Assembly: GCA_949358305.1 (NCBI GenBank)
Contig: OX442314.1
Span: forward strand, 60,583,369 to 60,647,368
Reading direction: 5' to 3'
DNA length: 64,000 nt
From: Strigamia acuminata
Lineage: Eukaryota; Arthropoda; Chilopoda; Geophilomorpha; Linotaeniidae
Of the stretch, positions 13,000-60,611 are shown piece by piece. The notes beneath the pieces were generated by a model that searched no databases, was not told the origin of the DNA, and saw only the letters and a program-made list of their open reading frames with translations. The position numbers and the translations under genes were made by a program. The first letter of the stretch is position 1. Each line of letters begins with the position of its first letter.

Positions 13000-14126
13000 A
13001 AGTGGTAGCAGAGGGTAAAAACGATCTGGCAACGATGTTTTTGGAGAAGAAACGGCCATTTTGCGACTACGAGAAGTCGCCGAGTGTGCGCCCGCCCAGC
13101 TCGTCGTAAAAACGAGTTTTCGGTGCGGATTTCATCGCAGAATCGTCGTGACAACGTGTGCGGACGATTCTTCGACACCAGAGGATCGTTTGGATACGTT
13201 TTTGGTTCGGAAATTTATGTTTTTCGTCGCCTCGACGTCGTGCAAATAAACGACGGTCGAGATTTGTGCTTCGAGAATTTCTACGTGTGTGTGCGACGAG
13301 AATCACTTCGTGGGAATTTTCATCAGTGTTGTGTGCACAAATAAGCACACAACAAGGATACAAACGACGGTAGGACATTATTTTGTCGATTTTCGTGCGA
13401 AATAAGCACGTTTGGACGCCATCACGGAAGATTTTCGTGACGGCGGCCATTTTTTTTGGATTTATCGTCGCGAACGACGATTTTCGCAGCATACAGAGAA
13501 GTCTGTAGCCAATGAGAAGTCCTGCACACGATAAGCGTGTGTGCAGGCATTGATTACCGTGATTTGAACCCCGGAGTTCATCTCACGAAGGCGCGGACGA
13601 GCGCAACGTTGATTTTCCCGCGATCGCACGGAAGTGTGCACGCGGACGGCACGACAGCCCAATTCCCGTGCATACGACGACGTGAGAACAACGTTTCGCC
13701 TTCGCGGGATAATATTGCGACGCCTTGCACCCGCAATTCGACGCAACTTTGCCATCTTAACACCGAAAAAGTGTATTTTTTGATTTATTTATTATCTCGT
13801 GAAACTTTGTATAGTTTTAAGGTTTTTGTTTTTTCCCTTGTTAGAATCGGTGCTACCCTACGTCCAGTCGGGCACGTAGCACTGTATTCTTGGCTAGGCT
13901 TATCCACGGCCACCCAACCATCCCGCGGGCCCCAGGAGGCGCGAACGGAAGAGTTGGGGGATTGCTAGTCAAGGTTTTCCAATCTCACTTATTGAGATTC
14001 CCCGGGTTGTGTGCATAATTCGCTTTCACTTTTGGGGGAATTCTGCATCCGTGCGACGAATTTTTACGTGATTTGTGTGATTTGTGCTTCGCTTTTTCAC
14101 TGGATTTCGTCGAAAATTTTCCCGAA
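13000..14126 (+). other. Leader of the Copia element with primer-binding site
   Basis: The primer-binding site TGGTAGCAGAG begins at 13003 and fits the 3' end of initiator Met tRNA. About 1.1 kb follows before the first in-frame ATG of gag-pol. Several 60-140-codon frames cross on both strands, but none has a recognisable domain. The sequence is rich in CGA/TCG, which keeps frames open by chance. Confidence 0.7.
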
Positions 14127-17100
14127 ATGGCGTCCTACGACCGCCATGATGATTATAAGGATGTGAAAAAGTTGGACGGAACCAACTACCCGACTTGGAG
14201 CGTACAAGTCCAGCTCCTTCTCCAATCGTACGGAGTTTGGGGCCACGTGACCGGCAAGACGAAAGAGCCGCCGGCCGGATCACCGTTTCGAGAGACAAGG
14301 GATTTTGAGAAAGGCGAGGAAAGGGCTCGCTCCACCATTTGTCTGGCGTGTGGCGAAGCCCAGCAGGTTGTGGCTGTCGCCCACGCTACTGCGAAGGAGG
14401 TGTGGGAGGCACTGAAAGCTGCCTACCAGCCCACGACACGGGCACGTAAAGCCCGTCTTCGCCGGGAATTTTTGGACATGCGGTTGCATGAAAACGAAGA
14501 GATGTTTGTTTTCACCGCACGAGTTGACCGAAAGGTCGTGCAACTTGCCGACGTCAAGATAAACATTACGGACGAGTTTCACGCCTTTCAATACCTTGAC
14601 CTGTTGCCACCCCAATACGAACCGGTCAAGCAGACGGTTTATCACTGGGGTGACACGGAGTTCACGGCAGCAGCGGTCAAGGAACGCCTAGTAGGCGAAT
14701 ACAACCGCCTACATGTAACAACCGACGAGTTTGGCGTGCCTTCCAAGGCGCCATTGGAGAACACTGGTGCCTTCTTTAACCAAGGCGGAAGACATCGCGG
14801 ACGTGGTGGAAATGCACCCGGCGGCCCACGCATCTGTTTTACTTGCGGTGGGACGGGCCACTTCGCCCGCGAATGCCCTACTCCGCCGAAACAGCAATTT
14901 CCTGCAAAAGGGAACCAAACTGGACAGTTTAGAGGCAACCCACGTGGAAAGGGGCGTGGAAGGGGCCAACAAAAGGCCACTGTCACTCAGGCCGACATAT
15001 TTAGTGACTCTCCAGTTTCTTATTACTCAGCGGCGGTTTGGCTTCAACAACAACCCCCTGTGCCGGCTTCCCACGTGTCTCATGCGAATTATGATTCGCA
15101 ATGGTACGTCGACACAGGGGCGACGGACCATTTCTCCTTCAACAAAGACTGGTTCTCCGACTTCAAGCCATTAACTGGCCACGTGCAACAGGGAGAAGGA
15201 AAGTCGAGAATCGAAGGAATAGGAAATGTGACATTGACATCGATTTACGGAACCCGCACCCGTGCACTTACATTGCAAAATGTATTTTATGCACCCAACT
15301 TTAGGAAGAATTTGATTTCGTTGGGTCGCACGGATGAAGCTGGGGCAACGACCATGATTAAAAATGGCAAAATGGTTATTTATAACGACAAAATTGATGA
15401 CCCTTCCATCACTGCGGAACGCACGAGTGATCGGATGTATAAGGTCAATTGTCGTATTTCTCCTGTGAACACTGCCGCATTACCTGCGCAACAGGCTGCG
15501 ACAGTGTCTTCTAGTCCGCTTATAAAAGGCGATGAAGTTGTAAATTCGATACTAACATACCCTAGTTTTAAGGACGCATTAACCCAAAATTCGAGTGAGT
15601 CAGGGAAACCTGCACCAGCGATAAAGGGGCAAGCGAGTGTTGCGAACAACGCGCCTGCGAAAGTTACGACCAATGCGCAAGCGAATGTTTCAAATAAAAT
15701 CAAGGCAAAGACTGCCAATGCCTCTAAGGAGGCAAGTTCAATTGTGCAGAACAAAGCAGACAAAGCAGAGAATGGGAACAATTCTACTAATGGGGTTAAA
15801 ACTTTTGACAAGAAAGACAAGGCCCAAACTATGGACATTTGGCACTCCCGCTTAGGGCATTTAAATGCAAAGGGAATTGCGGGTTTAGAGAAGTCAACTG
15901 ATGTTTTTGGGCTGAAACTCTCGAATAAGGAGTTGTCGACGTGCGACTTTTGCGCCAGGGCGAAGAGCACACGTGCTAGTTTTCCCCCAATAATTGGAAT
16001 TACGACAAAAAGCATTTTGGAAATAGTACACTTAGACGTGTGGGGCCCCGCTCCAGTTCAAACATTGGGTGGGGCATACTATTATCTCATTCTCATTGAT
16101 GATTTTTCCCGCTTTATGTGGATAATTATCATGAAACGGAAAAGTGACGTTTTAGGACATTTCAAGCGGTGGCTACTTGAAGTTGAGCGAACGACCTCTA
16201 AGAAGGTAAAGGCCATAAAAACCGATAATGGAGGGGAATTCATATCTAGACAATGGGACGCTTATGTGGCGACAATTGGGCTTAAGTGTATGAGGACTAA
16301 TGCATACAGCCCAGAAATGAATTCGGTCGCCGAACGGGCGAACCGTACCATTCTTAATGGTACTCGGGCACTTCTTTTTGAGAATAAATTTCCCGCCACT
16401 TTATGGGCAGAGCTTGCCGTTTCAGTTGTATATCTGAAAAACCGTTTTCCACATACGGGAATTGGGGGAAAAACACCTTATTCTGTGTTTTATGATAAGA
16501 AATTGTCCCTTCGCCATGTCAAGTGCATTGGCTCATTGACTTATGTCCATATCCCATCTCAGACTCGGGGTGGGAAATTACAAGACAGGGCATGGGCTGG
16601 GGCATTAATTGGATACGCCGCTTCTACACGCGGCTATAGAATTTGGGATCCGAATAAGAATCAGGTGTTTTTGTCTAAACACGTCAAAATTTTTGAAAAC
16701 AATTTCTGGTTTGAATTAGGGACGGCCACGTCGCCTGAATTGGAGAATGACTTTGATACTTCGAGTTCGGACTCGTTCAATGGGTCATTTTCTGACGACG
16801 ACAGTGTTGCTGGCGACCCGATAATTCAGGAGGCTCCGGGGATCCCGGAGGTCCTAGAAGTTCCGGAGATTCCGGAACCCCCTCCTGCGATACAGGAAGT
16901 TCCACAGCCTGTTCCGCAACAAAAAGTGAAACCCGCATTGCCCACGACCCCAAAGCCTACTCTTAGACCTGAATTGAGGCCAGTCGCTAAACAGGCAGCT
17001 CGGCAACCCCCACTCATGCCCGTTGAGGGGAACCCTATTCTTGGGGACGGGGATACAGAGGATGAGCCTGTTGAAGAAATTGGTGGGGCGAAGGGGGATG

Positions 17101-19010
17101 ATGTGAATTACTTCAACATCTATCCTGACAGTGATGGGGAACCTGAAATTCCTCCTGGGATTCAAACACGGCGTGGATCACGATCAAAGAAAAAGCAAGG
17201 GAACGTGATGTTACATCCGGAACTACTGCCGTTAAATATGGCGGAATGGGAACGACGCGCATCCGTCCGTAAAGACGGAGCGACGGCGGGACAAGTAGAT
17301 GTTGTTTACATCACGCCCTTAAAGGACAAGATAAGAAGTCGAGTTGATATCGCACGGTGGTGCGATGAAGAAGGGTACGCATATGATGCGACCTTATTTG
17401 ACTTTAAGACATTAGAGGGGGACGGTGAACCGTTAGGGTTTGCAGGTTTCTGTGCCGTCGAGCCAGAAACCTACGAAGAAGCCATGTACCACATCAAGCG
17501 TCCTGATTGGATAAAAGCCATGAGAGAGGAAATTGATGTGTTCGATGAAAGAACGGTTTACAAGGAAGTTGACAAAACGACTTTAGATGAGGGTACGACT
17601 CTCTTGGGATCGAAATGGATATACAAAATGAAGCGCGACCACACGGGTGTTATCCAACGCTACCGAGCCCGACTCGTCGCACAGGGCTTTAAGCAAAAGC
17701 CCGGAGTTGACTTTACGGAGGTGTTCTCCCCCGTCGTCAACTTCGTGCTAGTGATAGTGTTCTTTTGCACTTTGGTGATACTCAAGGGATGGCGGGATTT
17801 ACACCTGGATATCAAGGCCGCGTACCTTTACGGGGACCTCGATACGGTACAGTACATGGAGATCCCCAAGGGATATCGTACCGCCCATAATAAGCATAAA
17901 TGCTGGATGCTTTTAAAAGCACTTTATGGATTACACCAGTCCGGTCGTATGTGGTACCAGGTCCTCCACATACGACTACTTGAATTGGGCTTTCAACCGT
18001 TGTTGGGTTTAAACTGTGTCTATGCCCTAGACAACGACGCGATAGTCATCTTCTACGTGGACGATATCGTGCTATTCTCGAAGGATGACTATGTGGAACA
18101 ATGCGTTTTGAAGTGGTTACGGGAATCGTTTGAAGTAGTGAGTCTGGGACCCGTAACTTTACTTTTAGGAATCGAGTTTGATAGGTCCGGGGGCATGATT
18201 AAGATCCACCAACGGAAATATATTGAAAAGCTTTGTAAAGCGTACGGGATTGACTCGTGCCATCGAGTAAAGGTTCCAGTAACCCCGGGAACCATGATTC
18301 AAGGTGTAAGAACCGGAGAAAAAGTCGACACCTCATTCCCGTACAGATCTCTGGTCGGAAGTCTGTTGTTCATCGCCAGCCGAACCAGACCCGACATACT
18401 GTTTTCAGTAATAGTGCTTTCCCAGTATAACGAGACGCATTCGACGCGCCATGTCAATATGTTACTGCAGGTCCTGCGATATTTGGCCACCACGTCGAAT
18501 TATTCGATTAACTTATCGAACTGTAAAAACGAGAATTTGACAGTTTACACCGACGCGTCGTTTGCCCTGGATCAAGACAGACGACGAAGCTTTGGGGGAC
18601 ATATTGTCTATATGGGTGGCATTCCCATCTCGTGGAATTGCCACAAACAATCGATGACCTCCCTGTCGATCATGGAGAGCGAATTTCTCGCCGTGGTCGA
18701 TGGGGTGAAAGAAGTTATTTGGCTCGAGCGCCTTTACGATGCAAAGATAATGTTTTGTCTCGAGCGAAATACACCCTGCGTTTTTGCGGATAGCCAGCCG
18801 GCTATCCAATACTGTAAGAATAGGATCGAGAACAGGGCAAACAAACATATAGACGTGAAGCTCCATTTCGTTAGAGATTGGTTTGAGAAAGGAACGTTTT
18901 CAATCGAGCATGTTTCCGGCGAATTAAATGTCGCGGATATTCTGACGAAATGGTTAGCTAAATCCAGATTGAACGCGCTATGCGAATACATCTTTGTAAT
19001 TGACAAATAG
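14127..19010 (+). CDS. gag-pol: Copia Gag-Pol polyprotein, 1627 aa, intact
   Basis: The frame is open from 14073 through a TTG, but the first ATG is at 14127. Domains in order: UBN2-type Gag (about 1-190); CCHC zinc knuckle CFTCGGTGHFAREC (about 236-249); aspartic protease (WYVDTGATDHFS, Asp about 329); GAG-pre-integrase zinc region (HSRLGH ... CDFCARAK, about 570-615); integrase core with D (HLDVWGP), D (TDNGGEF) and E (VAERANR) at about 636, 700 and 736. A Pro/Glu-rich linker (about 880-1010) precedes RT with YVDD at about 1310, and RNase H (VYTDASFA, about 1472, ending HVSGELNVADILTK). Order PR-IN-RT-RH is diagnostic for Ty1/Copia. No stop or frameshift interrupts it. Confidence 0.95.
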   Translation: MASYDRHDDYKDVKKLDGTNYPTWSVQVQLLLQSYGVWGHVTGKTKEPPAGSPFRETRDFEKGEERARSTICLACGEAQQVVAVAHATAKEVWEALKAAYQPTTRARKARLRREFLDMRLHENEEMFVFTARVDRKVVQLADVKINITDEFHAFQYLDLLPPQYEPVKQTVYHWGDTEFTAAAVKERLVGEYNRLHVTTDEFGVPSKAPLENTGAFFNQGGRHRGRGGNAPGGPRICFTCGGTGHFARECPTPPKQQFPAKGNQTGQFRGNPRGKGRGRGQQKATVTQADIFSDSPVSYYSAAVWLQQQPPVPASHVSHANYDSQWYVDTGATDHFSFNKDWFSDFKPLTGHVQQGEGKSRIEGIGNVTLTSIYGTRTRALTLQNVFYAPNFRKNLISLGRTDEAGATTMIKNGKMVIYNDKIDDPSITAERTSDRMYKVNCRISPVNTAALPAQQAATVSSSPLIKGDEVVNSILTYPSFKDALTQNSSESGKPAPAIKGQASVANNAPAKVTTNAQANVSNKIKAKTANASKEASSIVQNKADKAENGNNSTNGVKTFDKKDKAQTMDIWHSRLGHLNAKGIAGLEKSTDVFGLKLSNKELSTCDFCARAKSTRASFPPIIGITTKSILEIVHLDVWGPAPVQTLGGAYYYLILIDDFSRFMWIIIMKRKSDVLGHFKRWLLEVERTTSKKVKAIKTDNGGEFISRQWDAYVATIGLKCMRTNAYSPEMNSVAERANRTILNGTRALLFENKFPATLWAELAVSVVYLKNRFPHTGIGGKTPYSVFYDKKLSLRHVKCIGSLTYVHIPSQTRGGKLQDRAWAGALIGYAASTRGYRIWDPNKNQVFLSKHVKIFENNFWFELGTATSPELENDFDTSSSDSFNGSFSDDDSVAGDPIIQEAPGIPEVLEVPEIPEPPPAIQEVPQPVPQQKVKPALPTTPKPTLRPELRPVAKQAARQPPLMPVEGNPILGDGDTEDEPVEEIGGAKGDDVNYFNIYPDSDGEPEIPPGIQTRRGSRSKKKQGNVMLHPELLPLNMAEWERRASVRKDGATAGQVDVVYITPLKDKIRSRVDIARWCDEEGYAYDATLFDFKTLEGDGEPLGFAGFCAVEPETYEEAMYHIKRPDWIKAMREEIDVFDERTVYKEVDKTTLDEGTTLLGSKWIYKMKRDHTGVIQRYRARLVAQGFKQKPGVDFTEVFSPVVNFVLVIVFFCTLVILKGWRDLHLDIKAAYLYGDLDTVQYMEIPKGYRTAHNKHKCWMLLKALYGLHQSGRMWYQVLHIRLLELGFQPLLGLNCVYALDNDAIVIFYVDDIVLFSKDDYVEQCVLKWLRESFEVVSLGPVTLLLGIEFDRSGGMIKIHQRKYIEKLCKAYGIDSCHRVKVPVTPGTMIQGVRTGEKVDTSFPYRSLVGSLLFIASRTRPDILFSVIVLSQYNETHSTRHVNMLLQVLRYLATTSNYSINLSNCKNENLTVYTDASFALDQDRRRSFGGHIVYMGGIPISWNCHKQSMTSLSIMESEFLAVVDGVKEVIWLERLYDAKIMFCLERNTPCVFADSQPAIQYCKNRIENRANKHIDVKLHFVRDWFEKGTFSIEHVSGELNVADILTKWLAKSRLNALCEYIFVIDK

Positions 19011-30723: not shown

Positions 30724-33700
30724 GTTGGTAGCAGAGGATGGTTGTATCCTCTGCAAACCACACTTCACTGCGTTAACTTCGCAACATTACGCGAATTTTC
30801 GCGTTTTGCGGCGAATTTTTGTTTCATTTCAGGTGCCGACGATTTTCGCCGACGATTTTGCTTTCCTGCAACGTCCACGGGCGAGGATCGACGATTTAGC
30901 ACACAAAGTGCAGTTATTTTCAACGATAACCGGAAAATTTTCGCGGGATTCGCGAATTTTCCGATCTTTGCTTATATAATTTCAGATTCCGACGATTTCT
31001 ACGACGATTTCCTGCTGCCAACGACGAATTTCAACGTGGATCAACGTCTACATTGGAGATTCATCACCTTTTCCGTCGATAATCGGGAATTTTGCGCGTT
31101 TTTCGCGAATTTTCCCGGGTTTTTTTTCATGTATTTACAGAGTTCGACGATTTTTGTTTTCGACAACGTCCAAGCGACGTTTCCAACTAGAAACGGATCG
31201 AATTTGCTACATTGCACCCCGGCGTGCGTGTAGTATCGACGATTTTGGATTTTTCCTCGTGAATTCGAGACGTATTGCGCTTTTCGGTGGTTTTTCAATA
31301 AAATCACGCCGTGTTATCTTTTTGCACGAGATTGTGAAGTTATTCACAATAGATTCATCTATTTCTCCTTCTTATTGCTTTCCAGATTCGCAATTCACTT
31401 TGTTAGTCATTAAGATAGTGTTTAAGATTTTGGTGGGCCAATTAGAATCGGTTTCGCCCTTTTGTCCAGTCGGGCACGCGAAGCTTGTATTCCCAGTTAA
31501 GGCTTTCTCAGGGCCACCTAACGTTTCCGTGACCCCAGGTGGTTTGCAAAGGGCGTTAGGGAGATACTTAACTGGGGTTATTTGTGCCAATTGTAGCATT
31601 GGCATCCCCTTTTTGGTTTCCGCTTTGACAGTGCTCCGAATTAAGTGCTACGTTATCAGTGCATCGAACATTAGTGCATCGACGACACCAGTGCTTCGCA
31701 TTTCATCAAAGCATTTGCCAGTGCCACTTCCAATTCCACGGTATTTTTCGCGTCTGTGTTTTGGAATCTACCATGCAGAAGTCGTCCGATCAACAAGGCT
31801 TGCGGACGCCCATACTCTCGGTGGGAAATTACGAGATGTGGGCGCGCAGCATGAAGATGACGCTCAAATCTGAAAGTTTGTGGCACCACGTCACGGAAGA
31901 GGACGAGGAGGATTTCAAGAAGACGGCTGACCCGAAGGAACTTAAGAAATACAAACGCCGGAAGGACAAGGCGTTGGGCTTGATTTTCTGTTCCGTCTCA
32001 GAGGCGAAGAAGTCCGCCCTGGACAATTGTGACACGCCTAAGCAGGCGTGGGACATCTTAGCGAAAATCTACGCGCCAAGCTCACGCGCCCGGAAGGCGG
32101 CTCTTCGGCGGGAATTTCTCGGTCTTCGCTTACAAAAAGGCGAAGAAATGGCGGATTTTCTTGGACGAGTGGACTTCCACGTCCAGAAATTAAAAGATAT
32201 CGGGGAGAAAACTTCGGAGGATCATCATGCGTACCAGTACTTGGACATGCTCCCCTCCGAATATTCACAAGTTTCCTTCGCCATTTACCATTGGGAAGAC
32301 CCGAAGTTCAAACCCCAAGCTGTCGCGGATCAACTCCTCTCGGAGTATATGAGACTCGGATCGATGAGGTCACACGATCAATCGTCAACGTCTTCCCAGG
32401 CTTACTCGACGGACAAATCTCGTGGGCGATCTCGTTCTCAACGTCCACTTTCCACCGTTACGTGTTTTAATTGCGGCCAGATGGGGCACTACGCAAATAA
32501 GTGTCCCGAACCACGTAAACAACAGTCTTCTAATCCGACAGCGTCTCTTCAAAGACCTTCTAGAAGCAGAAGCCGCAAACGGGGGAAAAATAATCCGAAC
32601 AAGGCCAACGACGGTCGTCCGAGAGGAAGTTCGCAGGTGAAACGAGAATCCACGTACTTCGTCAACGCACCCCCGCAGATAACCGAATCACCGACGGCCC
32701 ATTTTATGCAGTCCCACGAGTGGATCGTGGACTGCGGCGCAACGGACCACGTCACTCACGTTTCCTCGTGGTTTACTGATTTTGTCAAACTCGTGCCCTT
32801 CGACATCGAATTGGGGCAAGGCACCTCCCAGGTTACCGGCAAAGGGACTGTACGAATCGAGACTTTAATCGACGGATGTCAGTGTGCAGTCAACCTGGTC
32901 GACGTGCTGTATGCTCCAAATTTCGAAGCTAATCTAATCTCAGTGTCGAGAATTGACAAACGTGGTCACCATATCCACGTGTTTAATGGACAGATCGATG
33001 TCTACGAGACCGACTTTCACCGCCCGGGTCTCCGAGCTAAAGTTAGGGGCGGCCTTTACTACGTCGACGGCTTGTGTCCACCCGTGTCTACGGTTACGAG
33101 TGCTGTTTCTGTTTCGGAACTTCCACCTCCAGTAAAGACTTTAGTTACCGTTGAGGAAGACTTCGTTAAAATTCCAAAGCCGAAAAAGAGACAAAAGGAA
33201 CGCGAGACGTCTGATTTCCGGATTGAATTTCCGCCGTTACCACAGGCGACACTTCCCATTCCAACTCCGAAATCTCCTCCCGCTCCTGCACCCGCTCCGA
33301 CACCTATCCAAGCCAAAACCACATCCGCCTCTCATCAATCCTATGTCGACATATTAAAGTCGATTCCATTCGCCCATGTCCCATCCTCTCCTCCACCTTC
33401 TTCCGGAACCAATCAGAAAAAGGTTGCGGCGCCGACTTCGAAGAAGGATGCTACCGGGATATGGCATAGTCGACTAGGACACCTGCATACAAATGCTATG
33501 AAGCTTTTGGCGGCGAATGAGCCGGTTTACGGGATAGAACCCAGCGAAGTTATGAAAGAACTGGCCTGCAATCATTGTCGCATCGGTAAATCCACCAGGG
33601 CATCGCATAAGCCCGATGAACATCCCATCACGTCGAAGGCCCTGGATCTACTCCATATGGATTTGTGGGGCCCACATCAACAGGATTCATTCGGTGGCGC

Positions 33701-33822
33701 TCGTTACATTTTTACGATCATCGACGACGCAACGCGTTATACATGGATGTTTCCTTTGGCCCAGAAATCTCAAACCTTCGAGTGCTTTAAAGACTTTGTG
33801 TCCCGAATCGAGAGAGATCACA
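30155..33822 (+). mobile_element. Copia element C, 3' half deleted
   Basis: It starts with an LTR at 30155 (TGTTGGTGCGC), followed by a primer-binding site for initiator Met tRNA at 30726 and gag, protease and the first part of integrase. Near 33822 it fuses to the Gypsy B integrase. The rest of Copia pol, its 3' LTR and B's integrase sequence between the two points are missing. A deletion after insertion explains this best. Confidence 0.85.
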
Positions 33823-34097
33823 CGGATTGGGATGAATTTTTGTCATTTCTTCTTTTCTCTTATAATACTAGAGTCCATGAAACAACAGGTTATACCCCTT
33901 ATTATTTAATGCGAGGTTATGAAGCTGATCTCAACGTGGATGTCAACTTAAATCTTCCTCGAAAAGAATTCACTTTGCGTACTTCCAGATTTATCAGGGA
34001 GGCGAGGAGAATTTCTAATGAACGGATACAAGAACAAGGTGAAAAAAGCAAGAAACGCTTTGATTTGGACAGAGTACATGTGAAATTCGATCCATGA
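31773..34097 (+). pseudogene. Chimeric ORF: Copia Gag-PR-partial integrase fused to Gypsy integrase
   Basis: ATG 31773. UBN2-type Gag; CCHC knuckle CFNCGQMGHYANKC; protease with an altered active site, DCGATDH instead of the usual DTGA/DSGA; GAG-pre-integrase zinc region (IWHSRLGHLHTN ... CNHCRIGKS); first catalytic Asp region of Copia integrase (LHMDLWGPHQ). After FVSRIERD (about 33822) the same frame continues as Gypsy integrase (DWDEFLSFLLFSYNT ... VHVKFDP) up to a TGA at 34095-34097. Element D has GGA (Gly) at that codon, so the stop is a point mutation. The fusion is an accident of deletion and is not expected to work in transposition. Confidence 0.85.
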
Positions 34098-34640: not shown

Positions 34641-34986
34641 GTTTTGTCAAAGAAAGCACAAGTAAATTGTAGCGACCTGAGACAAAGCCTGATTTAAGTC
34701 TTAACAAACTTCATTTCAACGAGTTTTCGTGTGAAGGTAGGTATTGTTGTGGAATAATTAAATTAAAATCTGATAATGCGGAAATTTGAGACGAATCTAA
34801 CGTGATTGTTTTTGAGAAACTGCACTGAAATTATTGACTTAGGAATTTTTCACATTGAATATTTAATAAGTTTAGACTTAATAAATTCATAGCTATTACA
34901 TTTGAATAATAATCGCAATAGATAGATTGGACATTAAATGGAATTCAACTGGAATCAACTTGAGATACATAATCGACCGTGATTGG

Positions 34987-35097
34987 ATGCGTCACGCGCA
35001 CCCGATTCACCTCAGACATCGCATTTTGTATGAACTGGCCCAAAAGGCATTGGAGCCGTTCAAGGAGGAGACCGAAAAACTTAAACCTCCGGTGTAA
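34987..35097 (+). pseudogene. 36-codon stub of the ULP1-like ORF3 of element B
   Basis: A short ATG-started frame (MRHAHPIHLRHRILYELAQK, then a Glu/Lys-rich tail) lies between pol and the 3' LTR. It aligns with the C-terminus of the protease ORF of element D (LRLRFVYEIANREILPFELI). The position relative to pol and LTR is the same. Everything N-terminal, including the catalytic residues, is missing, so B once had ORF3 and lost it by deletion. Confidence 0.65.
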
Positions 35098-51374: not shown

Positions 51375-51378
51375 ATAT

Positions 51379-51871
51379 TGTTACGTGGCTAAATGGGGAT
51401 TGATTTAGTCCTACGTGACATGAATTCAATCAAGAATGACACAGGGTTTTATATGTAAAATGCCTGTTGGCTTTATTGTTCAAAGTCGGACATTTACTAA
51501 TGCAAATGTTCGGTCATCAGCTCTTATTACATTTGTTCATTTATTAAACCTAAAACACATAAATGGTTCATTCAAATCAAATAAGGATGATGCTGTTGTT
51601 TATTCAATTCAGTTTAGGAAACCTAGTCCTGCCTGACCGTCAACCGGCTGGCAGTAGTAGGTGAAGGTAACAGTTTGAGAATCAAAAGAGATCTGAGCTC
51701 TCTGGCTTAATCAACTCACTAAGTAAACTCCTATTCCCCCTATCAACTAAGTTGAACGGTCTGTGCATCTAATTAGGTGCGCAGCGCCGTCTAGTGAGAA
51801 TTCATTGCATTAAATGCCTAAACAGAGCGAGCAGAGCCAGCCGATACACGGTACGGCTCTACCGCGTAACA
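51379..51871 (-). repeat. 3' LTR of element D (493 bp)
   Basis: On the plus strand it reads TGTTACGTGGCTAAATGGGG ... CCGCGTAACA and looks the same as 59893-60385. The 66-codon plus-strand frame in it (51436-51636) is antisense to the element and without recognisable features. Confidence 0.95.
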
Positions 51872-52283
51872 GCCCCCCCCTTTAATTTTTTCGGTCTCTC
51901 GAAAAACAATGAATTGTTCTAACTAACGCATCTCCTTTCACATAAAAATTTTCAAATCATAAACACAATTTTACAATTTTTGAGAATCTCTTTTCATCAT
52001 CCTTATTTTTACAAAAATATAATATGATACACTTTTCAATGTTTATAAATGTCATAGTCACTTTTTATTACACTTTTACATTGGAAACAATATTCAAAGT
52101 TTAAAATTAAATAAAATTAACACTTTTCATCAATAATAACACTTTTTGGTTTTTCGTTTTATATTACTTTTTTTTTTCCAGTTTTCAATTTTCTATAAAA
52201 TAAAAAAAAAAACACACACAAAAAAAATGTTCAAAGTTCGTGTTGATTTTACACTTATTCACTTAAAGAAGTTAAAGTTCACT
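51872..52283. other. 3' untranslated region of element D with polypurine tract
   Basis: On the minus strand AAAGGGGGGGGCT precedes the LTR directly. The remainder is AT-rich with poly-A/T runs and has no gene. Confidence 0.75.
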
Positions 52284-53657
52284 TCACTCTCCTCCTTCCG
52301 CTTGATCTTTCTTATCCTCTTCCTTGATCAATTCGAATGGGAGAATTTCACGGTTTGCAATCTCATACACAAATCGTAAGCGTAACTCACATGGCTCCCC
52401 AAACTGCATTAAGTCACGGTCTTCAACGTATCTTCTAGTGAAGTAGAGTATGGTTGGGCCACAGCTGTCATTATCCAATTGGTGCATACGTGGCGGATCC
52501 CAACGTATGAATTTGTTTGGAAACTTTACTCCTGCATCCATCAACGAGTATCTTAAAGATTCCCACTTTGGATATGTGCGCTCTATTGGTCCGCTTGGGT
52601 CATAAAGCACGTATTGGGTTGGTTTTTTCCGCCAATCCACTATGAAAAGCTGCCAATGCTCTTCAATAGGAACTGGAAACACCCAAATCTTCTTTTGAGC
52701 ACTTGGAAGTCTCTTCATTAGCCAATAGATCGCTTCCTTTCGTTTAGCTGGGTCCACCATTTTGAAGACCCACTCAGATTGAATTGGTGCCAATATGGGA
52801 TATCGCTCTTCTAACAGTTGGAGGTAGTGATCAACGACGCTGTCATACGTCCAGCTCTGTCGTCCCGGCGTTAGATCGCCTAATGCTGCCATCTGATAGT
52901 TCATGACTTTAATCGGCGGACAACCTACGGCGTCGAATGCTAAGTCATATTTTGGCGCATTACTATAGTCTAATGCAAGTCCGAGAGCCTGGACCTGTCG
53001 TGCAGCGTCCAACTCCACACGGTATACCCGTATAGGAGTGGGAAACACTACACTAGGGTCCTGGAAGGACTCTCTTCTCGCTAGGGCGATGGCTTTTAAA
53101 ATATTTTTTCTTATCTTCGCCTCCTGGATCAGCAAAGCATTCGCCCCTGTTCTCCACAACTGGTAGTCGGGCAGTCCCATCACTCCTTTTAATTTCCTGG
53201 CTCTAATGGCGTTGACCATATTCCGGTGCTCCATTCGCAAATCATTTAATCGGCGTTTGTTTCGATCAACGGTGTGACGCATTTCTTCTTCCCGGATTCT
53301 TTTCGATTGCTCGTCAAACACTTTCTTCTTTTGTGCTTTCTTATCTCGTTTCAATTGTCGATTCTTACGACGACGACGCAATAAGCCTTCTTCACCCTTT
53401 GTTAATGGTCCTGCATATTTCTTTTTGTCTTCCTCCGCCTTTTGTTTTCCTTCTGTAAACGGGCGTGGGCAGTTAACCAATTCGTCCAAAGTTTTACTTG
53501 TGCTCGGCTTATTTGCTAAATAAATTTCCAAGTCATCGCCTTTCTTAAGTTGACGTTCCAAAAGATCGCCCACTTGCATCGAGCAGACCGAATCCGCATC
53601 GCTGTCACTGTCACTACGCACATCCATCCGATCAAATTTGCTTGCCATTTCGTCCAT
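52284..53657 (-). CDS. Element D ORF3: ULP1/SENP-type cysteine protease, 457 aa
   Basis: A true ATG at 53657. Residues 1-160 are charged, with a very basic Lys/Arg stretch (about 90-150, likely coiled coil or nucleic-acid binding). The C-terminal half looks like a C48 (ULP1/SENP) protease. W269 followed by Y278 fits the ULP1 start (W-x2-D type); H334 is in EEHWQLFIVDW; D353 in YVLYDPSG; Q393 and C399 in HQLDNDSCGPTILYF. This gives the His-Asp-Gln-Cys order of the family. ULP1 proteases remove SUMO or related modifiers, and adenovirus-type relatives mature capsids. Here it is encoded between pol and LTR of an intact Gypsy element. Its target is unknown: it might process Gag-Pol or strip modifiers from host factors. 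All four catalytic residues are present. Confidence 0.85.
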   Translation of the reverse strand: MDEMASKFDRMDVRSDSDSDADSVCSMQVGDLLERQLKKGDDLEIYLANKPSTSKTLDELVNCPRPFTEGKQKAEEDKKKYAGPLTKGEEGLLRRRRKNRQLKRDKKAQKKKVFDEQSKRIREEEMRHTVDRNKRRLNDLRMEHRNMVNAIRARKLKGVMGLPDYQLWRTGANALLIQEAKIRKNILKAIALARRESFQDPSVVFPTPIRVYRVELDAARQVQALGLALDYSNAPKYDLAFDAVGCPPIKVMNYQMAALGDLTPGRQSWTYDSVVDHYLQLLEERYPILAPIQSEWVFKMVDPAKRKEAIYWLMKRLPSAQKKIWVFPVPIEEHWQLFIVDWRKKPTQYVLYDPSGPIERTYPKWESLRYSLMDAGVKFPNKFIRWDPPRMHQLDNDSCGPTILYFTRRYVEDRDLMQFGEPCELRLRFVYEIANREILPFELIKEEDKKDQAEGGE

Positions 53658-54073
53658 TCGGATTCTAATATATTATTTGAAAAGAAAATAAAATAAATTA
53701 ATTCATTAATCCAAAATATTCACAAAATTATTCCAATTTTCATTCACTATTTCATTTAACATTTCATGTTGCACTAAATTACACTAAATTTAACAATTCT
53801 TCAACTAATTAGTCACTTGATAATATATGCACACACTAAAATTTCATTTTGAAGATTTAACACAATTATTTAAGCCTAAATTTCCATTTCGCGATGTTAT
53901 TTTCTCACAAAATTCGCGATAGATTCGTTTCGTTTTTAAGCTATTTGTTCGCCAAATTCGTTCAAAATTTCACTCTCTTCACTTACGGAATCACACACAA
54001 ATCAACTGCTGCTATTATTAATGCTTTAGGTTTCTTTGAGTCACACAGTAAACCCGGTTCGTCTCAGAAAACC
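53658..54073. other. Gap between pol and ORF3 of element D
   Basis: About 415 bp, AT-rich. It may hold the splice acceptor or internal promoter for ORF3. No ORF of its own on the minus strand. Confidence 0.5.
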
Positions 54074-57000
54074 TTAACACAATCCACTATAGTCACGACG
54101 AGCCTGTTTGCGAAGGCGACGTGACCGGAAACTCTCGATTTCAGGCGGCGACGCGTCATCGACTGCGTCAGCGACACCTGTCGGCGGTTTTCGCAATTGA
54201 TTTTCTTTGTTTTTCCGTTCGTCTTCATTTTGCCATCTTTCCATAATTTCTTTCGGTCCATAGAGCGCTTTTAATCGCTCTTTTTCGCTTGGAATTGGGA
54301 AATTTGACACTTTTGTTGTATTTTCTTCAGGTTCAAAGAGTGTTTTTAACGAAATTTGATCGTCATCGCTAATGAATCGTTCTTTAGCGATCGGAATTGG
54401 CGAAATTGACGTGTTTTCTTCAATTTCTTGTTGTTTTTCACTTTGTGTTGCAATTTTATCAGCAAATGTGACTTTTTTAGCCGTCAATTCTTCTAATATC
54501 TCCGCTGGAATTTCTTCTCTGGGTTTATACGGTTTTAATCGTTCAATGTTAACAATATCTGTTTTCTTTCCATTTGAACTTCTAATTTCGTAGTCATTTG
54601 GCGCGGTTCTTCTTACTATTTCGTATGGGCCTGAGAACTGTGGTAGGAGTTTTTCACTTAACCCAACTTTTCTATTGGGTGTTTTGAGATATACTAATTC
54701 TCCTGGGTCAAATTCCACATGAACTCGGCCTTGATCGAATCTTTTTCTGCTTTTTTCTCCTTGCCATTCCAACCTTTCATTTGCTATTTTCCTAGCTTCT
54801 CTGATGAATTTCGAGGTTCGCAAGGTGAATTCTTTCTGAGGTAAGTTGAGGTTTACGTCCACGTTCAAATCAACTTCATACCCTTTCAAAAGATAATAAG
54901 GTGTATATCCTGTCGTTTCATGCACACCGGTATTATATGAGAAAAGCAAAAATGGCAAAAAATCATCCCAGTCCCTCTGGTCCTTATCAACGTAAATTTG
55001 CAACATTTTTGCAAACGTCGCATTAAAACGCTCAGTAAGTCCATTGGTCCTTGGATGGTACCCTGAAGTGGTTTTGTGTAGGGCTTTAAACATATTTGAT
55101 ACTTCTTCCACCATTTTGTTTCTGTATTCTGTGCCTCTATCGCTCAGGATTTCTCTCGGACTGCCTTCCTTCAACATTAACTCATAAAGCAAGGTTCTAG
55201 CTGCTTCCAACGCTGTTGATGCTGGAGCTGCTCTAGCAATCACTGTCCGCGACAAATAATCTGTCATTACGAAAACATACTTGTTGCCCTTGTCGGAGGT
55301 CGGAAAACTTCCCAGTGTATCGATTCCAATCTTCTCGAAAGGCTTAGATATCGTAGACCACGGCTGCATTAAACCTTTTGGCGCTGTTGTCATTGATTTC
55401 GAGCTCGCGCAATGTGGACAAGAAAGTACGTAATTTCTAACGTCTTTATATATCCGGGGCCAGAAGAATCTTGTTCTCATTCTCTTCCATGTTTTGTTTA
55501 GGCCCAAGTGAGCACCCGTCAGTCCGTCATGCATTTCTTCAAGAACTGCAGTTTTCAAATGCTGCGGAACATATAACAGATTTACTTCCGTGTCTAGGGA
55601 ATTCAAAGAATTTTTCTTCCTAAACAACACATTGTCGAGAAGAACGAACTGCTTTAGAGGACGTCTTCTCTTCTTCGGAAGTTGCTCTACTTGATTCATT
55701 GCGGTGATCAATTCCAGTAGCTTCTTGTCCTTACGCTGCTCAGCAGGAAGGTCGAGCTGTTCGAGTAAAAGTGAGGGAACTATTTCGTTTTCTTCCTCGC
55801 TTAAATCTTCTGGAATTCTGCTCAAGGCGTCGGCATCTTTGTGCGCTTTTCCGCTCTTGTAGATCACATCGAAATCAAAGTCTACTAGCTGTAGGCTCCA
55901 TCTAGCTAGTCTGCCATTGGGGTTTTTGACTGATTTTAGCCATTGGAGTGCCGAATGGTCTGTAATTATCTGGAACTTCTTACCATACAGATAAGGTCGA
56001 TACTTTTCAATTCCAAACAGAATAGCCAGACATTCCCTTTCTGTGGCTGTGTAATTCTGTTCTGCTTGGCTGAGAAGTCTGCTGGCATAAGCTATCACAT
56101 GTTCTTGTTTGTTTATCTTCTGTTTCAACACTGCTCCAAGACCATATGCGCTCGCGTCGGTCGATACCATGAAGGGTTCTTCAAAATTAGGGTGCGCAAG
56201 CACTGGCACGGTGATAAGGGCGGTCCTCAATGTTTTGAAGGCCTTGTCATGAGGTGGGCCCCAATCAAATTTCTCGTCCTTCTTCGTCAAATTGACTAAG
56301 GGCTTGGATATGTCCGCAAAACCTGGAATGAACTTCCTGTAATACGAACAGAGCCCTATGAATCCTCGAAGAAGTTTGAGGTTAGTAGGAACTGGAAACT
56401 TCGTGACGGATTCCAGATTCCTTGGGTCTGGTGATATACCCTCAGAGTCCACGACATGTCCTAAATACTTGATGGTGTTCGTTCCAAATGTGCACTTGCT
56501 CAACTTCACCTTTAAGTTAGATTGTCTAAGCTTGTCGAAAACGTTGTCTAGATCTTTCAAATGCTGATCGAATGTTTTAGAGAAAATGATAAGGTCGTCA
56601 ATGTATGCTATACAAACTTTGCCTAGGAGGTTGCCTAAAACTTTGTTCATTAACTTTTGAAAAGCTGCTGGACTATTGCATAATCCCATTCCTAGGACGT
56701 TAAACTCAAAATGTCCGCTTGAAGTGGTGAATGCTGTTTTTTCGCAATCTTGTTCATCTATTTCGACTTGATAATATCCTTGAATAAGATCCATCATGGA
56801 GAAGAACTGTGCACCTGCCAGCTGATCTAAAGTGTCATCTATTCTTGGCAATGGGTACACCATTTTCTTTGTTATCGCATTCAAACGTCTCCAGTCGACA
56901 CAAAATCTCCACTTACCATCTCTTTTCTTTATTAGCAATACAGGCGCGCTCCAGGGACTTTCTGATTCCCTTATCACTCCCATATCAAGCAATTTCTTTG

Positions 57001-58020
57001 TTTCCTCTGCTTCGACTTCTTTTTCCTTCATAGAACGACGATACGGTTGCAAATGTATTGGGTCATGGTCTCCAGTATCGATTTTATGCTTATACACTTG
57101 AACTCTTCCCAAATCCTTATCAGAAACAGCAAATCTGTCTTGATTCTTTTGAAGAAGTTGTCGCATTTGCTCTTGTTGGTCTTTATTCATTTTGTCTTTT
57201 GCTATTGAGGAGTCAAAGTCAAAACAGTGTACCTGTTTTTCATCAAACACCCCAACATCAACCACATAATAAGCTTTTGCGATTGCTGACTTCTCCTTCA
57301 GAAAGACTGTCTTCTTGGTTGGGTTAGCCACTCGAATGATGCCTTTGCCGTTCTTGAAATCTGTTAAAGTCTTACAACCTATCACAGCAAATCTATCAGT
57401 AACATTATGTAATGGTTGCACAAACATGTCCAATGTTATTGCTTTATTCAAATAGATGGGAACAATGCACTCATGCATTGGTGGAATTGTGATGTTCTTC
57501 ATTACCCTCGCAACATAATTCTGATCAACAAAAGTTTTATTCATTGGAAATGACACTTCCTTTCCACTAGTTCGGCCCACAAAGATTTTTTGTTTGTCGT
57601 AGTCTAACACGCACTTCGCGAACAGCATGAATGGGTCACTTAGCAGTAATTCATAATGAAATCCTTTAACAATCAGGACCTCGATCCTGTATGTTAATTC
57701 ACCAATTGTAATGTTCATCTTGGTTTTTCCTATTGGAGTCACAAGTTCTCCGCTTACCCCTTGTAATCGTATATTTGGGCTTGGCGGGTACTTCAACTGT
57801 AAAGCTTCAGCAAGCTCTTCGCTGATAACATTGCGTTTTCCTCCAGTGTCCATAACTGCCTTGACTTCCATGTTGTTCACTATTACTGGAATTTCCAATA
57901 GAGATTCTGAAATGTTCATATTGACTACGATTATCTTCTCTTTTCTACTTTTTCTTTTCTTCTTTGGATGACAACATCTTCCTTGTTGATGGTGACATCT
58001 TCCTTGTGGCCGACCCACTA
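54074..58020 (-). CDS. pol: Element D Pol, ~1314 aa, intact
   Basis: Reached from gag by -1 frameshift at GAAAACTAG (58018-58026), counting from the GTG at 58018. A basic Cys/His linker (1-30) leads into protease DTG at 57-59. RT has conserved YPLPRIDDTL and the YIDD active site at 472-475. RNase H starts with D621 (STDASAYGLG) and contains TDHSALQWL. Integrase has a zinc domain (H830, H837, C867, C870) and core residues D900 (GIDTLG), D960 (LSDRGTEY) and E996 (GLTERFN). The C-terminal domain (LLPQFSGPYEIV) and an acidic tail follow. No lesions. Order PR-RT-RH-IN is diagnostic for Ty3/Gypsy. Confidence 0.95.
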
Positions 58021-59349
58021 GTTTTCCTCTTCTTGTTGACCTTGTTGTGGGTTCTGCTTAGGATTAGGGTTCGTTTTACCGCCCCCTTGTGTCCTTTTCT
58101 TCTTAAACCACCTTCTGTTGTTTGGGTTCCCTCTATTTTCTTGAGATTGTTGCTCCTGTGGCGCTGATGTGTTATGTTCACAACCATAACGATGCCAACA
58201 TCCACATGAACGCGTTGTTGTCGGACTACTATTTGACCGCTGTCTACCTCTGTTATATCTACCTCTAAAGTTCTGTCCGCGCTGCGATGCTGGAATATAC
58301 CACTCGCCTTGTATGAATAATGGAACCGATTGTTGTGGCTCTACTGACTCACTAACGAGCTTTTGCTGTTTTAATTTAATATTTTCAGCTAATAACTCGG
58401 CGTAGCTTACTGGGGATCCCCCTGTTCCAGACAGTATACCTGTTGTCGTAGGGTTCACCTTTTCATCTACAACTTTTTTGAACATTGTGAGCAGTAGATC
58501 CGCTGGTTCTTCTGTTTTGTGACTTTCATACAATTTAAGTCTCTGTTCCATTTCTTCTAACGTCGATGGAAATACTGTTATCATCATCTTCTGCATTGCA
58601 GGCTTCAAACCTTGGTAAACATAATTTATTTTCTGAGTTTCAGTCATTTCTGGTAGAATAAACGCACATTCGGCCAAGACTTTCTTCATGAAGGCATCTG
58701 CTGTACCCTCTTTGTGTTTCATGAAGTGGAGAGTATTGTAAACATTTTCTTGGCTTCTTCTAAATTTTTTCTCGATCTGTGGTTTCCAATCCGTCCATTT
58801 CCATGTCGGATTCTTCTTTAGTTGTTCCACAAACCATGCCAATCCATCAGTCTTTAAGGCTAATGCTAGATGTTTTACCCTCTCATCATCTGTTCCTATT
58901 GTAGCTTCATATGCCACAAGCCATTGGTCGATGTTGCCCTTTTCTGTATCATAAGTGACAACAGGTCGCTTCTGCACTACCAAACTCTTCAATAAGTCGG
59001 TCAATACGTCCGTTGGAGTCTGTGGTGATGTCATTTTCGGAAAATTTGGTTTAATTGGGGTTGGAACTGGTTTAGTTTTTACTGGTGTAAATGTCTTTAT
59101 TATTTCTTCTAAACCTTTTTGTGGAATTAATTTTATTGCTGGAGTAGCAAAATCCAATTTCTGTAATATTGATTGAGGTTGAGATCGGACTTCTTTATCT
59201 TCCTTCTGAGGTTCAGTGTCAGATTCGGATTTAGCGTTTTTACTTCTTCTAGTGGTGATATTTTTCAAATTTGGTTCAGGTGACTGCAAATTTTGTAAAT
59301 CCTGAAGATTATCCAAGTTGAATTGTGACAATTTCACTGGCTTATCCAC
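58018..59349 (-). CDS. gag: Element D Gag, up to 443 aa, no upstream ATG
   Basis: The frame opens after a stop near 59359 and has a GTG at 59349 (VDKPVKLSQ) but no ATG until the one in PKMTSPQTPTD, about 100 codons in. The stretch before that ATG is conserved with element B (KPVKL, DNL.DLQN), so it is probably translated through a spliced leader or a non-AUG start. The core (NIDQWLVAYEATIGTDDERVKHL ... KFRRSQENVYNTLHFM) is a retrotransposon Gag. The nucleocapsid part has CGCWHRYGC and a basic Arg/Lys/Gln tail instead of a CCHC knuckle. Stop TAG at 58020-58018. Confidence 0.85.
   Translation of the reverse strand: MDKPVKLSQFNLDNLQDLQNLQSPEPNLKNITTRRSKNAKSESDTEPQKEDKEVRSQPQSILQKLDFATPAIKLIPQKGLEEIIKTFTPVKTKPVPTPIKPNFPKMTSPQTPTDVLTDLLKSLVVQKRPVVTYDTEKGNIDQWLVAYEATIGTDDERVKHLALALKTDGLAWFVEQLKKNPTWKWTDWKPQIEKKFRRSQENVYNTLHFMKHKEGTADAFMKKVLAECAFILPEMTETQKINYVYQGLKPAMQKMMITVFPSTLEEMEQRLKLYESHKTEEPADLLLTMFKKVVDEKVNPTTTGILSGTGGSPVSYAELLAENIKLKQQKLVSESVEPQQSVPLFIQGEWYIPASQRGQNFRGRYNRGRQRSNSSPTTTRSCGCWHRYGCEHNTSAPQEQQSQENRGNPNNRRWFKKKRTQGGGKTNPNPKQNPQQGQQEEEN
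58020..58026 (-). promoter_or_regulatory. Gag-Pol frameshift site of element D (GAAAACTAG context)
   Basis: The minus strand reads GAG GAA AAC TAG in gag frame, and Pol is open in the -1 frame from this stop. Element B has ACG GAA AAC TAG and element A CCA AAA AAC TAG. The heptamer G GAA AAC does not obey the X XXY YYZ rule, but AAC TAG in the A site is conserved in all three. Confidence 0.6.
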
Positions 59350-59892
59350 ACTGAAGCCTTATATTGCACTTTTTTATTCACTTCACTAGCACTAATCTCT
59401 TTCTAAACACTGAATACACTAACACGAATTCATTACCTGAAAACTTAAAGTGTTATTAGCATATAATTCATAAATATTACACTCAAAATTACAAAGAAAA
59501 TAATCCAACAATAACATTTCAAAACAATTTTTCAATTCCTATAAATTCACAAAATTTCCTGTAAATAAATATCAAAATTAGTATTTATACACTATATATT
59601 TTATTTATTCTAAATATAACAATTGTAAATCAATTTATTAATCCCTAATAAACAATTAAACTCTATTTTTATTTCCAAAATGCAAATTATTTCACACAAT
59701 GACATTAAATATTCAAGCTGTGACTTCACTTGTTTTTACCAACTCTGAGTCATTCAAGATAATTGCTATAAAATCAGCAATTTTCAAGTTTTTATTTCTA
59801 GATTTTTATTAAATTATTTTGGCAATTTTAATCCAATTTTAATGGGATTTTAAATCTAAACGGGCTACAATCGAGACCGCATCTCCACCAGT
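59350..59892 (-). other. Leader and primer-binding site of element D
   Basis: On the minus strand TGGTGGAGATGCGGTCTCG starts two bases after the LTR. It matches the sites of B and E in its first ten bases and beyond. The leader is AT-rich; an acceptor-like GGCTTCAG lies just before the gag frame. Confidence 0.65.
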
Positions 59893-60385
59893 TGTTACGT
59901 GGCTAAATGGGGATTGATTTAGTCCTACGTGACATGAATTCAATCAAGAATGACACAGGGTTTTATATGTAAAATGCCTGTTGGCTTTATTGTTCAAAGT
60001 CGGACATTTACTAATGCAAATGTTCGGTCATCAGCTCTTATTACATTTGTTCATTTATTAAACCTAAAACACATAAATGGTTCATTCAAATCAAATAAGG
60101 ATGATGCTGTTGTTTATTCAATTCAGTTTAGGAAACCTAGTCCTGCCTGACCGTCAACCGGCTGGCAGTAGTAGGTGAAGGTAACAGTTTGAGAATCAAA
60201 AGAGATCTGAGCTCTCTGGCTTAATCAACTCACTAAGTAAACTCCTATTCCCCCTATCAACTAAGTTGAACGGTCTGTGCATCTAATTAGGTGCGCAGCG
60301 CCGTCTAGTGAGAATTCATTGCATTAAATGCCTAAACAGAGCGAGCAGAGCCAGCCGATACACGGTACGGCTCTACCGCGTAACA
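59893..60385 (-). repeat. 5' LTR of element D (493 bp)
   Basis: Apparently identical with 51379-51871. ATAT follows on the right. No AATAAA lies between it and the stop of the neighbouring host gene on the minus strand. Confidence 0.95.
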
Positions 60386-60611
60386 ATATTCAATTAGTGT
60401 CTGCGAAATTCAATTCAGCTGTTAGTCCACTTACCTGTTGTTATTCCTGAAGTCTGGAGTTCACGTTGGGTTTTTTGAGGAGTACAGCCATAGTCGACAA
60501 ATAAATAATTTTAAATCAATTATTTGTTTGCAATTGTTTAATTTAGTTTAATTTATAACCTTTACCATTTTTTGAAAATTTCTTTACAACTTTTGTAGGG
60601 TCAATTTTTTA

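Follow-up and report, generated by a model that had tools for sequence, protein, structure and literature searches.

The stretch of DNA analysed here (the window) is 64,000 nucleotides of the Strigamia acuminata genome, from contig OX442314.1, and coordinates are given within it. A complete Ty3/Gypsy element, which we call element D, occupies 51379-60385 on the minus strand. It is placed in Ty3/Gypsy by its LTRs, target duplication, putative primer-binding site, polypurine tract and gag, followed by protease, reverse transcriptase (RT), RNase H and integrase in that order. Read 5' to 3' along the element, its features are:

51375..51378 and 60386..60389, no strand: target-site duplication ATAT, read in both flanks
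59893..60385, minus strand: 5' LTR, 493 bp, identical to the 3' LTR
59877..59890, minus strand: putative primer-binding site TGGTGGAGATGCGG, two bases after the 5' LTR
58018..59349, minus strand: gag open frame of 443 codons, with no in-frame ATG before codon 105
54074..58018, minus strand: pol (protease, RT, RNase H, integrase), in a frame open from 58057
53664..53700, minus strand: putative 3' splice site (pyrimidine tract, then TAG), tied best of 61 AGs in 1 kb
52284..53657, minus strand: ORF3, 457 codons, predicted ULP1/SENP-like protease, 416 nt after pol in a separate frame
53589..53627, minus strand: SIM-like motif, ORF3 residues 11-23 (hydrophobic-x-hydrophobic plus an acidic/serine run), assigned at motif level only
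53058..53447, minus strand: basic helical segment, ORF3 residues 71-200, with NLS-like clusters in some copies
52323..52892, minus strand: C48 catalytic domain, ORF3 residues 256-445, placed by profile and alignment
51872..51883, minus strand: polypurine tract (AAA and a G run, then C), abutting the 3' LTR
51379..51871, minus strand: 3' LTR, 493 bp, identical to the 5' LTR

An earlier inspection of the letters of this DNA (the sequence-only reading) had described identical-looking LTRs, open gag and pol, and an intact 457-codon frame between pol and the 3' LTR, and all three observations are borne out. Since the LTRs are identical, the insertion is recent. The pol frame overlaps the end of gag, so a -1 shift is presumed between them. 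Element D gag matches Ty3_capsid weakly, under the Pfam cut-off. Its conserved start lacks an ATG, and the same start is at issue in the gag of 26346 (+) and in copies fetched from elsewhere in the genome. The beginning of the conserved gag protein is close to a GTG whose surroundings, of the type GGCTT(AA)CAGTGGA, recur in several lineages; non-AUG initiation or a spliced leader could each provide such a start. The target duplications read for element D and five other copies are all 4 bp long and end in TAT (ATAT in D, L025 and L038, CTAT in L027 and L031, GTAT in L033). From these six, the integrase may prefer NTAT.

The sequence-only reading had assigned ORF3 to the ULP1/SENP proteases by the catalytic order H334, D353, Q393, C399, and these residues are found at those positions. 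Searched alone against the PDB, the window ORF3 matches SENP1 at E 2.2e-4 (phmmer), followed by SENP2 and yeast Ulp1. These are host enzymes, and the window ORF3 is too divergent from them for recognition by Pfam, where it has no C48 match when searched alone. We therefore aligned it with 12 copies from the same genome that are 32-42% identical to it. These 13 represent four lineages and were taken from a set of 20, leaving out the near-duplicates L023, L025, L026, L028 and L034, L039, whose first in-frame ATG lies later, and L021, which has a stop. With E allowed up to 10, 12 of the 13 match Pfam C48 (best 1.2e-4), the window copy being the exception. The profile of all 13 matches 16 PDB chains, namely of SENP1 (5.8e-12), SENP5 (1.2e-8), SENP2 (4.3e-7), SENP3 (1.4e-5), Ulp1 (1.3e-4) and XopD (1.3e-3), and no chain of SENP8 at E 0.01. 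A C48 profile search had been proposed as a check on the assignment; it thus succeeds for the family profile against SENP1 and fails for the window copy alone in Pfam.

The active site is equally informative. The four catalytic residues are in register with those of SENP1 in the 13-copy profile, and they are invariant in 13 of 13 aligned copies, as are W269 and W335. In the SENPs, tryptophans at these two places line the tunnel for the Gly-Gly tail. The ORF3 of L037 has a single cysteine in 456 residues, and it is the catalytic one. Single-sequence AlphaFold models of ORF3 are poor (pLDDT 44.8 and 37.9), and a fold search with the first of them returned nothing at E 0.001. Taking profile and active site together, we consider it nearly certain that the predicted ORF3 product belongs to the ULP1/SENP (C48) cysteine proteases. 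Two other identities were tried and rejected. A chance frame of 457 open codons has p ~4e-13 at the local base composition, and the copies and the selection described below also speak against it. An env protein is contradicted by the lack of any membrane segment and of any env family in Pfam; the window ORF3 has a highest 19-residue hydropathy of 0.72, and six other copies range over 0.69-1.43. No homologue was found at E 0.001, with either the single sequence or the alignment as query, among 7,997 candidates scored, which were drawn by exact-word seeding from a collection that includes nr and UniRef entries; a search of IMG/VR found none either.

ORF3 is not confined to element D, which the sequence-only reading had asked of it. 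At least 94 stretches of the S. acuminata genome match it, in at least 92 places, and 79 of 94 among the matches listed have no stop. Their identities to the window copy fall in groups at 91-100%, about 42%, 39-41%, 36-37% and 33-35%, with a few between. Twenty loci were fetched, of which 18 are well centred (L023-L040). In 15 of them, ORF3 is preceded by nearly the whole of RT and by integrase, in an unchanged order. Of the other three, L023 shows just the tail of RT ahead of RNase H and integrase, L029 the last part of pol alone, and L038 no pol. Complete LTR pairs lie within five of the fetched stretches and are 100% identical in L025, L027, L031 and L038 and 99.6% in L033. The LTRs of L036 and L039 are cut by the end of the stretch and are 100% identical over the visible part, those of L030 are represented by two short pieces (98.9 and 100%), and the other ten stretches have no pair inside. 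Approached from the pol side, 60 of the 150 RT copies listed are followed after 2-8 kb, in the same orientation, by a listed ORF3, a figure that becomes 37 of 42 for those listed whose RT is at least 98% identical. The other 90 of the 150 have no listed ORF3 downstream; both the RT and the ORF3 counts are lower bounds, but ORF3 may be dispensable. One contig, C13 (10.3 Mb, about 4% of the genome), holds 28 of the 92 ORF3 places among those listed and is perhaps a sex chromosome or heterochromatin. The genome also has other long C48 frames, one of 1075 codons at six places with equal scores and one of 1828 codons at two, which probably belong to other ULP1-bearing mobile elements.

Purifying selection on ORF3, a further check named beforehand, is evident in every comparison within the lineage of element D: dN/dS is 0.05-0.13 in 36 of 36 pairs among nine copies, four of which have stops. 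Twenty near-identical loci, including that of the window, contain 53 distinct variants, of which 46 are synonymous, 7 are replacements and none is a stop; the expectation without selection is 24% synonymous, 71% replacement and 5% stop. Nineteen pairs were examined in other lineages. Eight close pairs gave dN/dS of 0.04-0.17, the very close pair L029/L030 gave 0.39, one saturated pair gave 0.27, and the remaining nine gave no ORF3 value. Some RT and gag values from these comparisons, in pairs that include L040, look misplaced and were set aside. By these substitution patterns ORF3 is under purifying selection. The earlier proposal of a ULP1-type protease as the third ORF of an intact Gypsy element is accordingly supported by profile, active site, copy number and selection, and the comparisons made here show ORF3 as an accessory gene belonging to one clade of Ty3/Gypsy.

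The genome contains derivatives that have lost one or the other part. L038 consists of an LTR, a gag fragment, an intact ORF3 and a second LTR; its LTRs are identical at 573 bp, its duplication is ATAT, and it lacks pol. The reciprocal loss is seen in the window itself, in an element B whose pol is interrupted and in which the following is what is left of an ORF3 otherwise deleted:

34963..35094, plus strand: remnant of the last 44 ORF3 codons of another lineage, in element B, 100% identical over 44 aa to L029/L030

At L050, the last 47 ORF3 codons are left beside an open pol frame of 1360 codons, and the exact 31-mer of this junction is found a single time in the genome. We considered whether ORF3 had been spliced out at L050 and rejected this, as the junction falls within ATTTT, a short shared run, and no GT-AG border is evident. 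At L051, beside a pol copy with RT at 88%, there is no similarity to ORF3 or pol within 1.2 kb. The absence of ORF3 from at least two copies fits a product that would be either trans-acting or dispensable. Element B shows a further rearrangement: a Copia gag/integrase frame at 31659-34097 (+) runs directly into the C-terminal part of its integrase, an apparent Copia-Gypsy fusion. Elsewhere in the window, at 14073-19010 (+), there is an intact Copia gag-pol frame of 1645 codons with an MBD (methyl-CpG-binding) domain between integrase and RT (residues 1057-1112, E 6.8e-9).

ORF3 is present in at least four pol lineages. Four deep lineages are recovered by the pol tree and the ORF3 tree alike, with the window ORF3 on a long branch of unsure placement, so the association is old within the clade. 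ORF3 evolves far faster than RT, the respective identities to element D being 32-42% and 85-92%. Within lineages, the relationships are modular. Over most of the pol stretch compared, L030 and L040 share 91-99% identity (86% in its first interval); the value drops to 65-79% within ORF3 and is 70-84% past its end. For L035 and L037, identity is 86-95% in pol and 60-66% in ORF3. The pol tree pairs L036 with L039, whereas the ORF3 tree pairs L035 with L036 and L037 with L038/L039. Those ORF3 groupings are rejected by the pol data (AU p 0.014 and 0.033), and the pol grouping of L036 with L039 is rejected by the ORF3 data (AU p 3e-50). For L040, its ORF3 grouping is rejected by pol (p 0.008), and the grouping of L030 with L040 is not rejected by ORF3 (p 0.46). 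There is no conflict between pol and ORF3 for L024 with L028 (p 0.42). Because the trees and the identity profiles disagree in this way within lineages, elements have apparently exchanged the end comprising ORF3 and the LTR independently of pol, with template switching as the probable mechanism. The way the 3' LTR is copied in reverse transcription would be enough to tie the LTR to ORF3.

As to expression, element D and most copies have a pyrimidine-rich acceptor 5-7 nt ahead of the ORF3 ATG; in L035-L039 the distance is 46-48 nt. By a score of our own, devised after seeing the sequence and applied to copies that within one lineage are not independent, this acceptor takes first or second place among all AGs in the kilobase upstream in 15 of the 18 copies scored (tied first in D). 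It comes sixth in L029 and seventh in L030, where the support is modest, and eleventh in L040, where it is weak. No 5' splice donor common to the lineages was found, and the candidates differ. The message for ORF3 would be a spliced subgenomic RNA with its acceptor just before the ATG. As to location, the SIM-like motif is present in six of seven copies scanned, residues 70-200 contain 33-42 lysines and arginines versus 15-19 aspartates and glutamates, and NLS-like clusters appear in only four of seven copies. The motif, the basic segment and the C48 domain together suggest a nuclear SUMO protease. The basic helical region would be its route into the nucleus, and the N-terminal motif would dock it on SUMO-rich chromatin. 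There it would strip SUMO from host factors that silence transposons by SUMO-dependent piRNA or heterochromatin pathways. Acting in trans, it would let complete copies carry along both the ORF3-less and the pol-less ones. In Drosophila, Piwi-mediated silencing is described as requiring SUMO conjugation (PMC8733420). Given this requirement, the suggested nuclear SUMO protease, and the anti-silencing activity of the plant VANC proteins taken up below, we favour anti-silencing. Our tentative reading, which we would put somewhat short of an even chance, is that ORF3 is a trans-acting, probably nuclear SUMO protease directed against silencing.

The alternative that survives best accepts the SUMO protease and changes its targets, which would be proteins of the element or host import and integration factors (Gag, integrase, tethering factors) in place of silencing. 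The identical protease evidence applies to it, and ORF3 and pol have remained together in at least four lineages, their deep trees being congruent. The pol-less and ORF3-less copies fit either kind of trans action and single out neither. We regard this alternative as rather unlikely. It is less probable still that ORF3 cuts ubiquitin or NEDD8 and so shields element or host proteins from degradation. Specificity varies within C48, and ORF3 is distant from every solved relative; but all 16 chains matched are SENP1/2/3/5, Ulp1 or XopD, with SENP8 absent at E 0.01, and the SIM-like motif points to SUMO. The sequence-only reading had offered two guesses, desumoylation of host factors and a maturation protease, of which we consider the first more likely. 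A second maturation protease cutting Gag or Gag-Pol would share its broad fold with the adenovirus-type maturation proteases, and yet pol already encodes an aspartic protease, the profile matches are to SENP/Ulp1, and the tryptophan pair that lines the Gly-Gly tunnel of the SENPs has invariant counterparts. Moreover, the L050 copy keeps its 1360-codon pol frame open without ORF3, and ORF3 is deleted from element B as well, where pol itself is interrupted. We judge this role improbable. That ORF3 is carried along without serving the element, as the open pol frame in a copy without it might imply, is scarcely credible given dN/dS of 0.05-0.13, 46 of 53 variants synonymous, and an active site invariant across copies only 32-42% identical to that of element D.

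To our knowledge, and in the literature searched, no transposon-encoded enzyme has been shown to attack the SUMO conjugation on which piRNA-guided silencing depends in flies. Under the anti-silencing reading, a conserved, intact SUMO-type protease borne by Gypsy elements, in recent insertions, is a concrete candidate for such an attack. With ORF3, a new enzyme would also join the few non-env ORF3s known, and its history points to module exchange between coexisting retroelements. A search of the literature at the level of titles and abstract openings, covering few subscription journals, found no ULP1 ORF3 in a Gypsy element.

ULP1 domains have been reported in three groups of DNA transposons: Ginger1 (PMC2836005), Crypton (PMC3212892) and MULE/VANDAL (PMC13317346). 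In Ginger1, as in element D, a ULP1 domain occurs together with an integrase of Gypsy type (PMC2836005). However, Ginger1 is a cut-and-paste element with TIRs, related to Gypsy through its integrase, and its ULP1 (or OTU) domain is the C-terminal domain of the transposase (PMC2836005). We rejected membership of element D in Ginger1, as its ORF3 has a frame of its own, 416 nt beyond pol, and its ends are LTRs, not TIRs. CryptonF and CryptonS are also described with an accessory C48 peptidase, which in some CryptonS is an additional protein; these are tyrosine-recombinase elements, and the C48 cases given are in oomycetes (PMC3212892). Comparable in layout are the Vesta and Juno Gypsy elements of bdelloid rotifers, which like element D have an enzymatic, non-env ORF3 after pol (PMC5408684). 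There, TelKA2n keeps ORF3 and is missing most of pol, resembling the L038 type of derivative. The ORF3 of Vesta and Juno is a DEDDy exonuclease or a GDSL esterase, whereas that of element D is predicted to be a SUMO-type protease; the words "ulp" and "peptidase" are absent from the main text of that report (PMC5408684).

A functional parallel is with VANDAL/MULE elements of Arabidopsis (Kaonashi, KIU), where a ULP1 domain likewise occurs in an accessory gene of a mobile element (PMC13317346, PMC10398659). Escape from silencing is described for Arabidopsis VANDALs whose VANC genes include ULP1, a domain whose own role is given there as unknown (PMC13317346), and VANC proteins are described as acting in trans against silencing (PMC13317346, PMC10398659). 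VANDALs are plant DNA transposons in which ULP1 is fused to a sequence-specific VANC, whereas element D is an arthropod LTR retroelement with ULP1 in an ORF of its own. In a crude test for VANC-like repeated, family-specific noncoding motifs in six elements, no 7-9-mer exceeded the shuffled maxima. By analogy, a wider picture can be drawn that we hold to be doubtful as a whole: an animal LTR clade would have its own trans-acting, anti-silencing SUMO protease as the counterpart of plant VANC-ULP1, with ORF3 and LTR forming a cognate unit swapped as a block against a shared pol, and with pol-less helpers and ORF3-less cheaters around it.
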